From positions 62,001-126,000 of the forward strand of contig NZ_JARWAC010000001.1 in the NCBI RefSeq assembly GCF_029846175.1: a stretch of 64,000 bases of DNA, read 5' to 3'. Positions within the stretch are counted from its first letter, which is position 1, and the number at the start of each line of letters is the position of its first letter. The position numbers were made by a program, and so were the translations under genes. The DNA is from Sphaerisporangium sp. TRM90804. GTDB lineage: Bacteria; Actinomycetota; Actinomycetes; Streptosporangiales; Streptosporangiaceae. This document shows positions 35,331 through 48,909 of the stretch, in pieces. The notes below the pieces were generated by a model. The model ran no database searches and was not told the origin of the DNA. It saw only the letters and a list, made by a program, of their open reading frames with translations.

Positions 35331-35438
35331 GTTCGGGCCCGTCATGGTCGCGCACGCCGGCGGCCCGTCCAGGCCCTGGGTCAGGGCGATCAGGGCTCGG
35401 GCCCGTCATGGTCACGCATGAGGGCGCCCCGTCCCGGC
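35331..35438. repeat. Direct repeat pair, 63 bp apart
   Basis: GGGCCCGTCATGGTC occurs at about 35335 and 35398 within longer ~40-bp similar segments, between the acyltransferase and DUF2157 genes. Divergence outside the core suggests an old duplication. No gene is seen here. Confidence 0.6.
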
Positions 35439-35566
35439 CCGCTTGTGAGGCGCTCCCTTCTTCGCGCCGTCGCCGGTTGGCGGGACGAAGGGGGAGACCG
35501 TTCGCGGGCACCCTAGTAGCGTGGACGATCGCCTCCCTGAGCGGGGGACGAGGGAAGCGGGCGCGT

Positions 35567-36739
35567 ATGGACGCTGGAAGGCACGACCCGGTGCGGGTTC
35601 CCGCCCGGCGCCTGGCGTGGTTGCGCGCCGAGCTGGCGCGGTGGCAGGCGGAGGGCGTGATCGACGCCGAGACCGCCGAGCGCATCGCCGGGCGCTACGC
35701 CGCCGGACGCCGCGTGAGCCTCGAACGGCTGGTGCTGCTGCTCGGAGGCGGTTTCCTCGGGGTCGGGCTGATCTGGCTGGTGTCGGCCAACCTCGACCGG
35801 CTGCCGCCGCTGACGCGCTTCGCGGGCGTCGTCCTGGTCTGGCTCGCCGCCGCGGCGGCCGGCGAGGTGCTCCGGTCGCCGGCGCGCGCCGAGGCCGCCC
35901 GGCTGGTCACCGTGCTCGCGGCCGGGGGAGTGGTGTTCCAGGCCGCGCAGAGCCTGCAGGTGCCGGCGTACGCGTCCAGCCTGCTGGGGGTCTGGGCCGC
36001 CGGCACGCTGGCCTACGCGTACGCGACCGCCGCCGTCGGCCCATTGCTGGCCGGGGTCGCCCTGGCGTCGGTCTGGTACGGGTGGTACGTGGGCGAGCAG
36101 GGCTCCCGGGCGGCGGCCGTCGCGGTGTCGCTCGTGGTCGCGGGGGTGGTGGCGACGTCCGCCGCCGTCCTGCACGAGCGGCGGTGGCGGCCCGGCTTCG
36201 CGCCGGCGTGGCGGCTCGCCGGCATCGTGCTCGCCCTCGCCGGGCTGTTCGTCGCGGCCTTCCCCGGTGTCGCCGCCGGCGACATGTACGGGTCGCCGGC
36301 GCTCTGGACGGGCCTGGGCGCCGCCGCGCTGGCCGCGGGCGCCGCCGCCGCGCTCGGCGGCGCGGCCGGGCGCCGGGAGGTCGTCCCCGTGGTGCTCATG
36401 GTGGGCGCGGCCCTGCTGCTGGCCGCCTGGGCGCCCGGTGACGGGGCCCGGTACGCGGCCGGGCCGGACGCCGCGCAGACCCTGCGGGCCCTCGCGGGCA
36501 CGCTGGTGTACATCCTGGCGGCGGTGTGGTTCGCGGCCGTGGCCGCCCGCCGTGACCTCCCCGCCCTGGTGTACCTCGCCACGGCCGCGCTCGTGGTGTT
36601 CGTGACGGTGCAGAGCTTCGCGGTGTTCCAGCCGCTGTTGTCCGGTGCCGCGCTGTTCCTGGCCCTGGGCGTCGTGTTCCTCGTCACCGGCGTGCTCGTG
36701 GACCGTGGCCGCCGCCGCCTGATGGAGGTGGCCAGGTGA
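35567..36739 (+). CDS. DUF2157 domain membrane protein
   Basis: 390 residues from ATG 35567, preceded by GAGGGAAGC. The N-terminal ~60 residues are soluble (LRAELARWQAEGVIDAETAERIAGRY), the hallmark of DUF2157, followed by about ten transmembrane helices. The family has no assigned activity; it usually sits beside a GDYXXLXY-motif protein, as here. Its last codons (RRRLMEVAR) overlap the GTG of a 29-codon mini-ORF, and this junction is duplicated twice downstream. Confidence 0.85.
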   Translation: MDAGRHDPVRVPARRLAWLRAELARWQAEGVIDAETAERIAGRYAAGRRVSLERLVLLLGGGFLGVGLIWLVSANLDRLPPLTRFAGVVLVWLAAAAAGEVLRSPARAEAARLVTVLAAGGVVFQAAQSLQVPAYASSLLGVWAAGTLAYAYATAAVGPLLAGVALASVWYGWYVGEQGSRAAAVAVSLVVAGVVATSAAVLHERRWRPGFAPAWRLAGIVLALAGLFVAAFPGVAAGDMYGSPALWTGLGAAALAAGAAAALGGAAGRREVVPVVLMVGAALLLAAWAPGDGARYAAGPDAAQTLRALAGTLVYILAAVWFAAVAARRDLPALVYLATAALVVFVTVQSFAVFQPLLSGAALFLALGVVFLVTGVLVDRGRRRLMEVAR

Positions 36740-36825
36740 CCACACGGCCGTCCTTGTCGGGCTCCGGCGGTCTCGCCTGTGTGCTCGTGGTTCACGGGTG
36801 CCGCTTGACGGAGGTGGCCGGATGA
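36736..36825 (+). CDS. 29-codon coupled mini-ORF 1
   Basis: A short frame (MTTRPSLSG ... LTEVAG) that begins with GTG overlapping the DUF2157 stop and ends with a TGA overlapping the ATG of mini-ORF 2. It arose as a chimera of the next gene's start and the previous gene's end through tandem duplication. Its own ribosome site GGAGG lies 7 bases upstream. Whether the peptide matters or only passes ribosomes down the mRNA is unknown; it may be a by-product. Confidence 0.45.
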   Translation: MTTRPSLSGSGGLACVLVVHGCRLTEVAG

Positions 36826-36911
36826 CCACGCGGCCGTCCCTTTCGGGCCTCGGCGGTCTCGCCCGCGTGCTCGTGATACGCGGGCGCCGCCTGATGGAGG
36901 TGGCCGGATGA
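36822..36911 (+). CDS. 29-codon coupled mini-ORF 2
   Basis: A diverged copy of mini-ORF 1 of identical length (MTTRPSLSG ... LMEVAG). Its ATG overlaps the stop of mini-ORF 1 and its stop overlaps the ATG of the GDYXXLXY gene. About 14 substitutions separate the two copies, yet start, ribosome site, length and both overlaps are intact. That is compatible with selection for coupling, though chance preservation over 90 bases cannot be excluded. Confidence 0.45.
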   Translation: MTTRPSLSGLGGLARVLVIRGRRLMEVAG

Positions 36912-37495
36912 CCACGCGACCGCCGTCCTCGGGCCCCGATGGCCCGTCGTCCTCCGGGCCCGCGGGGCCGGAGCCCGCCGGCCCCCTGGGGGGCGTCGCG
37001 AGCCGCTCCACGCTGGGTTCCCGGCTGCGTTCGCGCCCGGTTCTGGTCGCCCTCGCGCTGCTGCTGCAGCTCGTCCTGCTCGCGGTGGTCGTCGGGCCCC
37101 GGCTGTCGGCCCGGTTCACGGGCGAGGAGTACCGGCTGGCCGTCGGCCCGGTCGATCCCGTCGACCCGTTCCGCGGCGCGTACGTGACGCTGGACTACCC
37201 GGGCCTGCCCGCGCCTCCCCAGGGATACAAGGAGGACGTGGCGTTCGTGCCGCTGGTGCGCGACGGCGCGTTGTGGAAGGGCGCCGGGATCACGGCGCGC
37301 CGGCCGCAGGCCCCGCCGTACCTGGCCTGCCGGGCCACCGGCTACGGGTGGATGAGCTGCGGCGTCGAGAGCCTGTTCCTCCCGGAGGACAAGGCGCGCC
37401 GCGTGCAGGACGAGCTGACCGCCGACCGCGCCGCAGCCGTGCTGAGGATCGACCGGAACGGCAACGCCGCCATCGTCGACGTCGTACCGCGCTGA
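36908..37495 (+). CDS. GDYXXLXY-motif membrane protein
   Basis: 195 residues. A Pro/Ser/Gly-rich cytosolic N-terminus (~40) precedes one transmembrane helix (VLVALALLLQLVLLAVVV), then an extracytoplasmic domain containing the defining motif as RGAYVTLDY. It is the usual partner of DUF2157 proteins; function unknown. Its start lies in the third copy of the 86-bp repeat. Confidence 0.82.
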   Translation: MTTRPPSSGPDGPSSSGPAGPEPAGPLGGVASRSTLGSRLRSRPVLVALALLLQLVLLAVVVGPRLSARFTGEEYRLAVGPVDPVDPFRGAYVTLDYPGLPAPPQGYKEDVAFVPLVRDGALWKGAGITARRPQAPPYLACRATGYGWMSCGVESLFLPEDKARRVQDELTADRAAAVLRIDRNGNAAIVDVVPR

Positions 37496-45667: not shown

Positions 45668-45821
45668 ACATGGTCCCCCGAGTCGTTGACCTGACTCGGA
45701 TATGCCCCGGAACCTCCCCGTCCCGCCCCCTTCAGCCGACTGCTGACCTCCACTTGCCCCACTTTTACGCCAGAACCCACCAATCCACCCGCCACCACCC
45801 AGCACGCCCTAAACGACCTCG

Positions 45822-46355
45822 TCCCTTAGCGCCCCGGCACTCCACCACACCGGCGCCGCGACGGCGATCAGCCGGCACGGCGAGGACGGCGCCGTAAACG
45901 GTGGCCGACCCTGACCCCGAGCGGCCGGGTGGGACTTCTCCGCCTGGGGCTCGGAGCCTTGCCCGGCACCGCGACGGCGATCAGTCGGCACGGCGAAGAC
46001 GGCGCCGTAAACGGGGACCAGCCCAACCGATGGACGAACGGCCCCCGTCCCCTCGTGCCCGGCACTCCACCACACCGGCGCCGCGACGGCGATCAGCCGG
46101 CACGGCGAAGACGGCGCCGTATACGGCGGCCGACCCTGACCCCGAGTGGCCGGGTGGGGACTTTTCCGCCTAGGGCTGGAGCCTTTCCCCGGCACCGCGA
46201 CGGCGATCAGCCGGCACGGCGAAGACGGCGCCGTATACGGTGGCCAGCCCAACCGATGGACGAACGGCCCTCGTCCCCTCGTGCCCCGGCACTCCACTAC
46301 ACCGGCGCCGCGACGGCGATCAGTCGGTACGGCGAAGACGGCGCCGTGTGCGGCG
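45822..46355. repeat. 113-bp tandem array with alternating segments (226-bp higher-order unit)
   Basis: A ~47-bp core (CCGCGACGGCGATCAGCCGG ... ACGGCGCCGT) recurs at 45856, 45969, 46081, 46195 and 46308, spaced 112-114 bp. The intervening ~66-bp segments alternate between two types: A (GACCCTGACCCCGAGCGGCC) after cores 1 and 3, and B (CAGCCCAACCGATGGACGAA) after cores 2 and 4. The true unit is therefore core-A-core-B. Each core contains the palindrome ACGGCGCCGT. It lies between the CoxG-like gene and the start of the TagF-like gene. Confidence 0.92.
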
Positions 46356-46384
46356 GGCTGGGTCGAGCGGATCGGCCGATCAGG

Positions 46385-47990: not shown

Positions 47991-48622
47991 GACGGACGCC
48001 GTTCCGGTGTGGGGTCGGCGAACAGTGCCCACACCAGGTGGCCGGTGGCCGGGTCGCCTCGCCAGCCCACGCGGGCCGCCAGGGAGGTGACGGCGTCGAG
48101 GCCACGGCCGTGCTCGTGGAGCAGGGCGTTCTCGGGATCCTCCATCCGATGGCCGGCGCGGGCGGGGGTTCCACCGCCGCCGAGGTCGTACACGCCGAGG
48201 CGCACGCTGCGGGGGCGCCGGGTGAGCTCGACGACGAAGTAGCCGCCCGGCTCGCCCGAGCGGCTGTGGAACAGCGAGTTGCTGACGAGTTCGGCGACGG
48301 TGAACTCGGCCTCGTCCACCCAGCGGGTTCCGGCCAGCAGGCAACGTACGAAGGCGCGGGCCTTGGGCGCCTCCTCGGCGAGTCCGGCGAACGCGCGGCG
48401 CCACAGCAGCTTCCCGGTGGGAACGAGGCGGTGCCGCGTGCGGGGAGCGGCCGTCACGTCGACGATGGGGGCGGCCGTGAGGTCCACGATGGGGGCGGCC
48501 GTGACGTGGACGGTGGGGGCGGCCGTGAGGTCCACGATGGGGGCGGCCGTGACGTGGACGGTGGGAGCGGCCGTGACGTGGACGGTGGGAGCGGTCGTGA
48601 CGTCGACGGGGGGATCGGCCAT
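47987..48622 (-). CDS. RsbW-like ATP-binding regulator (HATPase) with octapeptide-repeat N-terminus
   Basis: 211 residues. The C-terminal ~140 form a GHKL ATPase of the anti-sigma/SpoIIE-partner kind: AEFTVAELVSNSLFHS is the N box, VYDLGGGGTP the G1 box and HGRGLDAVTSLA the G2 box. Residues ~8-60 are seven copies of an 8-residue unit TAAP(T/I)V(H/D)(V/L) encoded by a 24-bp tandem repeat. ATG 48622 has AAGGAGG 8 bases upstream; the in-frame GTG 48631 lies inside that site. Such proteins bind and phosphorylate anti-anti-sigma factors. Confidence 0.85.
   Translation of the reverse strand: MADPPVDVTTAPTVHVTAAPTVHVTAAPIVDLTAAPTVHVTAAPIVDLTAAPIVDVTAAPRTRHRLVPTGKLLWRRAFAGLAEEAPKARAFVRCLLAGTRWVDEAEFTVAELVSNSLFHSRSGEPGGYFVVELTRRPRSVRLGVYDLGGGGTPARAGHRMEDPENALLHEHGRGLDAVTSLAARVGWRGDPATGHLVWALFADPTPERRPS
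48447..48614. repeat. Seven 24-bp tandem repeats inside the ATPase gene
   Basis: Units start at 48447, 48471, 48495, 48519, 48543, 48567 and 48591 with no gaps (GCGGCCGTGACGTGGACGGT plus four bases). Two variants alternate (GTGACGTGGACGG and GTGAGGTCCACGA). The frame is kept, so each unit adds eight residues to the protein N-terminus. Confidence 0.95.
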
Positions 48623-48909
48623 GACGGCCACCTCCTTGCCGGTGGTCGCGGGACCACCCCGCGCCGAGCAGTACTGTCGCGCGCCTCACCGCACGTCTCC
48701 GCCCCCCGGGACCTCGGACGGGAGGACGCCCGCCGTGAAGCGCCGTACCTGCCCGCCCACGCGGCAGCGGCCCTCCCATGACGCCCGCCGCCGCTTCACA
48801 TCAACCCCACGAGCGCCGCCAACCGTGATCGGGCAGACACTCTCGGTGAGTAAAGTGTTGCCCGCAGACAGCGAACGGACGGTTCATCCGTGGCAAGGGA
48901 GCCTGATCA

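Follow-up and report, generated by a model that had tools for sequence, protein, structure and literature searches.

The window analyzed here, a 64,000-nucleotide stretch of the Sphaerisporangium sp. TRM90804 genome, contains a DUF2157 gene followed on the same strand by a GDYXXLXY gene, and the junction between them is occupied by a tandem repeat that holds two mini-ORFs (Table 1). The three start codons (GTG for mini-ORF 1, ATG for mini-ORF 2 and for the GDYXXLXY gene) are spaced by exactly 86 bp. Each mini-ORF has 30 codons including its stop, opens on the preceding stop, and closes on the following start, with a GTGA or ATGA overlap at all joints, and after the two units the GDYXXLXY frame is again that of DUF2157, with stops in between. 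The same ribosome-site-like sequence, GGAGGTGGCC, precedes all three starts without any difference. Tandem Repeats Finder gave 82% matches and a score of 310 for the repeat, which is far from chance, and the 86-bp repeat occurs at a single place in the 8.3-Mb genome (86 contigs) at E<=0.001.

Table 1. Features of the DUF2157/GDYXXLXY junction, in window positions.
Feature	Position	Strand	Basis
DUF2157 gene (upstream gene A); last bases GTGA	35408..36739	+	Longest ORF, putative start; Pfam PF09925, E 2.3e-22
Original DUF2157 tail, source copied into both units	36691..36739	+	Sequence comparison
Tandem repeat, period 86 bp, 2.6 copies	36713..36938	+	Tandem Repeats Finder
GGAGGTGGCC, ribosome-site-like, ahead of mini-ORF 1	36724..36733	+	Sequence
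Mini-ORF 1: GTG start, 29 aa, ATGA overlap at end; GDYXXLXY head + DUF2157 tail	36736..36825	+	
GGAGGTGGCC ahead of mini-ORF 2	36810..36819	+	Sequence
Mini-ORF 2: ATG start, 29 aa, ATGA overlap at end; second unit	36822..36911	+	
GGAGGTGGCC ahead of GDYXXLXY gene	36896..36905	+	Sequence
GDYXXLXY gene (downstream gene B), 195 aa; head is source of each unit's first half	36908..37495	+	Pfam PF14345, E 1.9e-20

Composition of the repeat units and test for constraint

In each unit the first half corresponds to the GDYXXLXY head and the second half to the DUF2157 tail, and therefore the unit is the stop-start junction itself, tandemly duplicated. The event is thus a tandem duplication across the overlap, and both real genes remain complete. 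The 86-bp match fades outside the units on both flanks. The real DUF2157 tail, VLVDRGRRRLMEVAR, is longer by one codon than the unit tails VLVVHGCRLTEVAG and VLVIRGRRLMEVAG, each read up to the stop; because the DUF2157-tail half of either unit lacks these 3 nt, the homology extends back to about 36691. An initial annotation made from the window alone had described the junction duplication with its leftmost limit at 36691, its stop-by-stop layout, the ribosome sites of the individual starts, and about 14 differences in 90 positions between the units, and all of these features were recovered here, the last as exactly 14 of 90.

The same annotation had taken the retention of start, stop, length, and both overlaps in the face of these differences as a sign of constraint, and this part of its interpretation did not hold. 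The differences between units 1 and 2 fall 7/3/4 at codon positions 1/2/3, so that a third-position bias is absent, and the ten differing codons comprise three synonymous changes, six amino acid changes, and one start codon. When units were simulated with 7-14 random substitutions and no indels, 35-69% of the runs still gave proper mini-ORFs. The longest difference-free run between the units (13, counted cyclically) was no longer than expected by chance (P 0.89), and, as described below, lengths of 2 mod 3 are favored in any case. Constraint on the units was consequently rejected, purifying selection on the peptide was not detected in a comparison confined to two units, and the peptides show no sign of mattering. 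The duplication, the geometry, the ribosome sites, and a possible passage of ribosomes from stop to start stand. The last of these agrees with published observations, in the available portion of a review, that coupling is most efficient at spacings of -4 to +3 (PMC12548453).

The junction in related genomes

A GDYXXLXY gene is present in 5 of 11 Sphaerisporangium genomes, and the other four congeners that bear it (L003-L006) have a plain GTGA or ATGA overlap without the unit. A wider survey yielded 89 loci, or 81 once 8 repeats of the same contigs were removed; the alignment-based scan contributed 78 loci and the single-protein scan no relative. DUF2157 lies directly upstream in 80 of the 81. 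A direct -4 or -1 overlap is possible in 70 of these 80 pairs, and the ten remaining pairs are the window, two from Planotetraspora, one that has a 3-codon frame, and six that are spaced in other ways. The initial annotation had suggested counting repeat units at this junction in relatives; among the 4 congeners and the 80 DUF2157-GDYXXLXY pairs no relative with a different number of copies of this unit was found.

Planotetraspora thailandica (L007, 1442-1552) and P. phitsanulokensis carry one mini-ORF each, of 36 and 37 aa, with an ATGA overlap at both ends, and no likeness of these peptides to the window peptides was seen. In P. kaengkrachanensis this stretch is continuous in frame with the gene that follows, and the pair was for that reason counted among the 70. 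The stretches of P. thailandica and P. phitsanulokensis differ by indels of 2, 1, and 2 nt that sum to 3, and thus both overlaps are conserved, unlike the central part of the peptide.

The head of the GDYXXLXY protein in the window (36908-37033) consists of ∼41 Ser/Pro/Gly-rich residues ahead of a conserved SRPVLV, which is preceded by 5-8 residues in congeners L003-L005 and by about 19 in L006. Tandem Repeats Finder also reported a separate 25-bp tandem repeat within this head (36920-36969).

Duplicated junctions elsewhere in the genome, the family, and the class

We scanned 2.72 of the 8.32 Mb of the genome for NTGA junctions with surroundings that are repeated downstream (at least 70% over 38 nt) and with coding-looking genes on both sides. 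Seven junctions were listed, against 263 direct NTGA junctions in the same sample, and they comprise five mini-ORF chains and two in-frame fusions. The chains lie between DUF2157 and GDYXXLXY in the window (two units of 86 bp), an ABC ATPase and an FtsX permease (two of 80 bp, differing at 4 of 80 positions), an acyl-CoA dehydrogenase pair (one of 95 bp), an ATP-grasp and an MFS protein (three of 29 bp), and T2SSE and T2SSF (units of 134 and 140 bp). The T2SSE/T2SSF array is the most diverged of the genome and has a compensating +1/-1 pair and a 6-nt gap. The own-genome arrays thereby span units of 29 to 140 bp and one to three hops. In the fusions the duplication forms an in-frame N-terminal extension of the second gene, in one case over 42 bp between a sigma factor and an RskA-type anti-sigma factor (87% alike) and in the other over 123 bp with a weaker match (71%). 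Families were assigned for ten flanking proteins, that is five pairs, with the 123-bp pair left out. The 42-bp duplication (genome G000, contig C4, minus strand, 261932, L192) could add 14 residues to the N terminus of the anti-sigma factor. A scan of 0.75 Mb under looser settings returned additional rows in which the first gene was not coding-looking, and these were left out of the counts. Chains counted by anatomy alone (25 rows in a 0.75-Mb scan and 103 of 372 pairs in the 2.72-Mb sample) were rejected as evidence because start calls were lax and NTGA codons inside genes inflate the numbers, and the distribution of 210/85/77 at 2/0/1 mod 3 among the lax pairs was not used on the same grounds.

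To the family we applied a search pattern of two GGAG-N7-ATGA sites 36-96 bp apart, which matched 114 of 297 genomes. Phases were counted on complete-string rows only, and CRISPR-like arrays of two genomes were thereby excluded. Among the matches listed, the 86 complete-string rows were distributed 47/29/10 at 2/0/1 mod 3, and the 42 rows with similar spacers 23/14/5. Four of the five similar-spacer rows at 1 mod 3 span a 23- or 26-bp unit twice over, and one row at 2 mod 3 likewise spans two copies of a 25-bp unit, away from any coding-looking junction. Gene context was fetched for 40 places, made up of 35 of the 36 distinct places with a spacer identity of at least 5/7, one incomplete-string array, and 4 of the 10 rows at 4/7; 39 of them were read, one at a contig edge being missed. 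Coding-looking genes lie on both sides at 12 of the 39 places, which amount to 11 distinct loci because one is common to two congeners. Ten of the 11 have a length of 2 mod 3 and a mini-ORF that closes on the start that follows; the remaining locus is 0 mod 3, and 1 mod 3 does not occur. In four of the ten (L277, L280, L283, and L285) the copies are weakly similar, and these may be ordinary small ORFs. The locus found in two congeners (44 bp) lies between a response-regulator DNA-binding (PF00486) protein and a protein with a weak, sub-cut-off HAMP match that is probably a sensor kinase. Four borderline places stayed outside the 11: L272, L248, and L278 have a length of 2 mod 3 but lack a coding call on one side, and L270 is 0 mod 3. 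A similar short ORF (e.g., MTIHVVRAVPGVSGGIA) that ends on ATGA was observed in five family genomes (G053, G095, G119, G139, and G025) with start spacings of 50, 50, 50, 59, and 41, all of them 2 mod 3, and is possibly a conserved coupled small ORF.

At class level, matches came from 73 of 394 genomes, of which some had already appeared in the family search. Phases were counted on the matched strings alone, with multi-copy arrays reduced to one period, for the 39 complete rows outside the family, of which 13 are duplication-like. These 13 are distributed 6/4/3 at 2/1/0 mod 3. Seven have a stop no more than 8 nt from the following start (for two, this is a stop other than the overlapping TGA), three continue in frame, and three do neither. 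The phase bias is thus weaker outside the family.

Codon phase of the duplicated lengths

The seven own-genome and eleven family loci together give 18 junction loci, with lengths distributed 15/3/0 at 2/0/1 mod 3. A junction duplication of any length leaves both genes whole, and therefore a naive null would assign one third to each phase; under it, 15 of 18 has P of about 2e-5. This null was rejected after a codon-phase control, in which the terminal 100 nt of the upstream gene were compared with the initial 100 nt of the downstream gene at the 263 real junctions and exact matches were collected. The shares of these matches at 2 mod 3 were 0.53, 0.56, 0.63, 0.71, and 0.86 for lengths of 5, 6, 7, 8, and 9 nt, respectively. 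Tail/head matches favor this phase because at this GC content both genes show strong codon periodicity and stand one base out of step at NTGA. On the basis of the shares for 6-8 nt matches (0.56-0.71), 15 of 18 has P of 0.02-0.19, and the absence of any 1-mod-3 case among the 18 has P of 0.01-0.08, or 0.03-0.14 without the four weak loci. The control already favors 2 mod 3, and therefore phase alone is no proof of selection. Most of the phase bias is accounted for by the codon-phase control; there may be a small residual excess, and the absence of 1-mod-3 cases hints at some purging of uncoupled arrays.

Discussion

With modest confidence, we favor the interpretation that the array is a tolerated, nearly neutral passenger, a junction duplication that stays translationally coupled, alters GDYXXLXY output modestly at most, and encodes inert peptides. 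The ancestral DUF2157-GDYXXLXY pair would have overlapped by NTGA, as the relatives do. From the composition of the units, a tandem duplication would have had one end inside the final ∼15 codons of DUF2157 and the other inside the opening ∼14 codons of GDYXXLXY, and one further amplification, presumably a later event, would have produced the two 86-bp units. Chance matches between tail and head would mostly share codon phase, as the measured matches do, and recombination between them could have yielded lengths of 2 mod 3, at which each unit would become a small ORF from one stop to the next start. Ribosomes that end DUF2157 may then restart on mini-ORF 1, on mini-ORF 2, and finally on GDYXXLXY, and the termination-reinitiation path would be kept with two extra hops, aided by the copied ribosome sites. 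This scheme borrows the minimal-impact logic proposed for MIRUs, with duplication in place of insertion. In its support, the same anatomy occurs at four further junctions of this genome, alongside the two in-frame fusions, and at the 11 family loci. Against a purely neutral reading stand the +1/-1 pair and 6-nt gap of the most diverged array and the Planotetraspora indels that sum to 3, which, as far as sequence can tell, offer hints of frame upkeep beyond neutral need. The lack of 1-mod-3 loci among the 18 and the weaker phase bias outside the family also count against the favored account.

These hints would count for selected tuning, a development of the proposal in the initial annotation that copy number could tune the ratio of the two proteins. 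In this reading every hop reduces translation of GDYXXLXY by a constant factor, and selection maintains the number of units that gives the DUF2157:GDYXXLXY ratio. Both units have retained their starts, stops, overlaps, and ribosome sites, and none of the 18 junction loci is 1 mod 3; but the unit is missing from the four congeners that have the pair and is confined to the window among the 80 pairs, the phase bias is largely explained by codon-phase matches, the peptide is without constraint, and the same phenomenon is found at unrelated operons. We regard tuning as quite unlikely. Coupling might also be absent, with the GDYXXLXY start independently using its own strong ribosome site and the mini-ORFs silent or translated without effect. 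A GGAGG site stands ahead of each start, and therefore fresh initiation is possible; moreover, single mini-ORFs are common here by anatomy, as the 103 of 372 lax pairs show, and therefore anatomy proves little. The direct stop-start overlap kept in 70 of 80 pairs suggests, if indirectly, that coupling matters for the pair, and we consider independent initiation rather unlikely.

The units might instead act through RNA structure or an internal promoter. The RNA of 36690-36960 folds somewhat better than its shuffles (z -2.03, and -2.29 in a second run), and MIRUs between senX3 and regX3 reportedly drive regX3 expression, according to the accessible part of PMC4213456. Among 12 other stretches of the two genes, however, one reaches z -2.57 (the others range from -1.11 to 0.93), and scans of 35400-37000 gave neither a sigma-70-like site nor a terminator, the sigma-70 scan being poorly suited to this GC content; we judge this explanation very unlikely. 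Functional small proteins are the reading to which we give almost no credence: both mini-ORFs are open and have ribosome sites, but neither has a Pfam match, both are hybrids of the ends of two other proteins, six of the ten differing codons alter the amino acid (start residue aside), and the unit is absent from the four congeners examined. Insertion of a MIRU-like mobile repeat at the junction would account for the size, the tandem arrangement, and the -4 overlaps, all of which agree with the reviewed MIRUs as far as the available descriptions go. It is largely refuted by the single genomic place of the repeat, and the unit is built of its own two flanking genes; we hold it to be extremely improbable.

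The MIRU features used for comparison come from the available portions of PMC4213456, PMC3914561, PMC4128351, and PMC12548453. There, MIRUs are described as tandem units of 46-101 bp that are dispersed, with 41 loci in one genome (PMC3914561), and as 77-bp units in senX3-regX3 (PMC4213456); they contain an ORF that is coupled at a spacing of -4, a feature that likely allows insertion with little effect, and they appear mobile (PMC12548453). The array shares with them short tandem units between co-directional genes (two of 86 bp) and small ORFs coupled at -4 (GTGA/ATGA at 36736, 36822, and 36908), and in the portions of PMC12548453, PMC4213456, and PMC3914561 at hand MIRU copy number varies. 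Whereas MIRUs are dispersed and seemingly mobile, the window unit has one place and is made from its own flanking genes, a composition that argues against mobility. Because dispersal fails and the unit is built from its own flanks, we do not file the array as a MIRU; by analogy, it would work like a MIRU array without being one, a distinction drawn from published MIRU descriptions. It also resembles NTGA termination-reinitiation, with -4 start-stop overlaps and a ribosome site at each joint (PMC12548453, available sections). Ordinarily, two genes are joined directly in such coupling, whereas here two tiny hybrid ORFs intervene and coupling is suggested by geometry. A short ORF ahead of a gene can affect the translation of that gene, as the accessible text of PMC8708949 and PMC8092293 describes, and the mini-ORFs are in this respect like the axe-txe minigenes, for which distance to the next start outweighed minigene length (PMC8708949), and the small ORF between mgtC and mgtB (PMC8092293). 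In the parts of these papers at hand those are single elements with tested effects, whereas the window ORFs are by-products of a duplication, known from sequence alone. The array falls into a class that we propose here, the junction tandem duplication, in which the head of the downstream gene and the tail of the upstream gene are duplicated and both genes remain whole.

Tentatively, and with more doubt than conviction, we suggest that duplication of the overlap is a general and recurring origin of coupled mini-cistron chains among high-GC actinomycetes; the one-base offset would make the coupled phase the commonest, and selection would then remove uncoupling arrays. We recognized no description of junction duplication as a source of such chains in the available portions of the open-license PMC literature searched. 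A duplicated overlapping junction and codon periodicity would make a mini-cistron chain a likely outcome, which offers a simple, testable origin for coupled small ORFs without a mobile element or design and a possible model for the first origin of MIRU-like arrays; neat frames in such arrays would be no proof of selection. If the proposal is true, these arrays are a genome-wide natural experiment on termination-reinitiation, and the range of unit lengths and hop numbers in this one genome could allow the per-hop cost of reinitiation to be measured. The interest thus lies chiefly in the recurrent class and the codon-phase rule, and less in the single locus.

Tandem Repeats Finder reported two further tandem repeats in the window, a long one at 45817-46356 (period 226, 2.4 copies, 91% matches) and a 24-bp repeat at 48443-48631 (7.7 copies, 85% matches).
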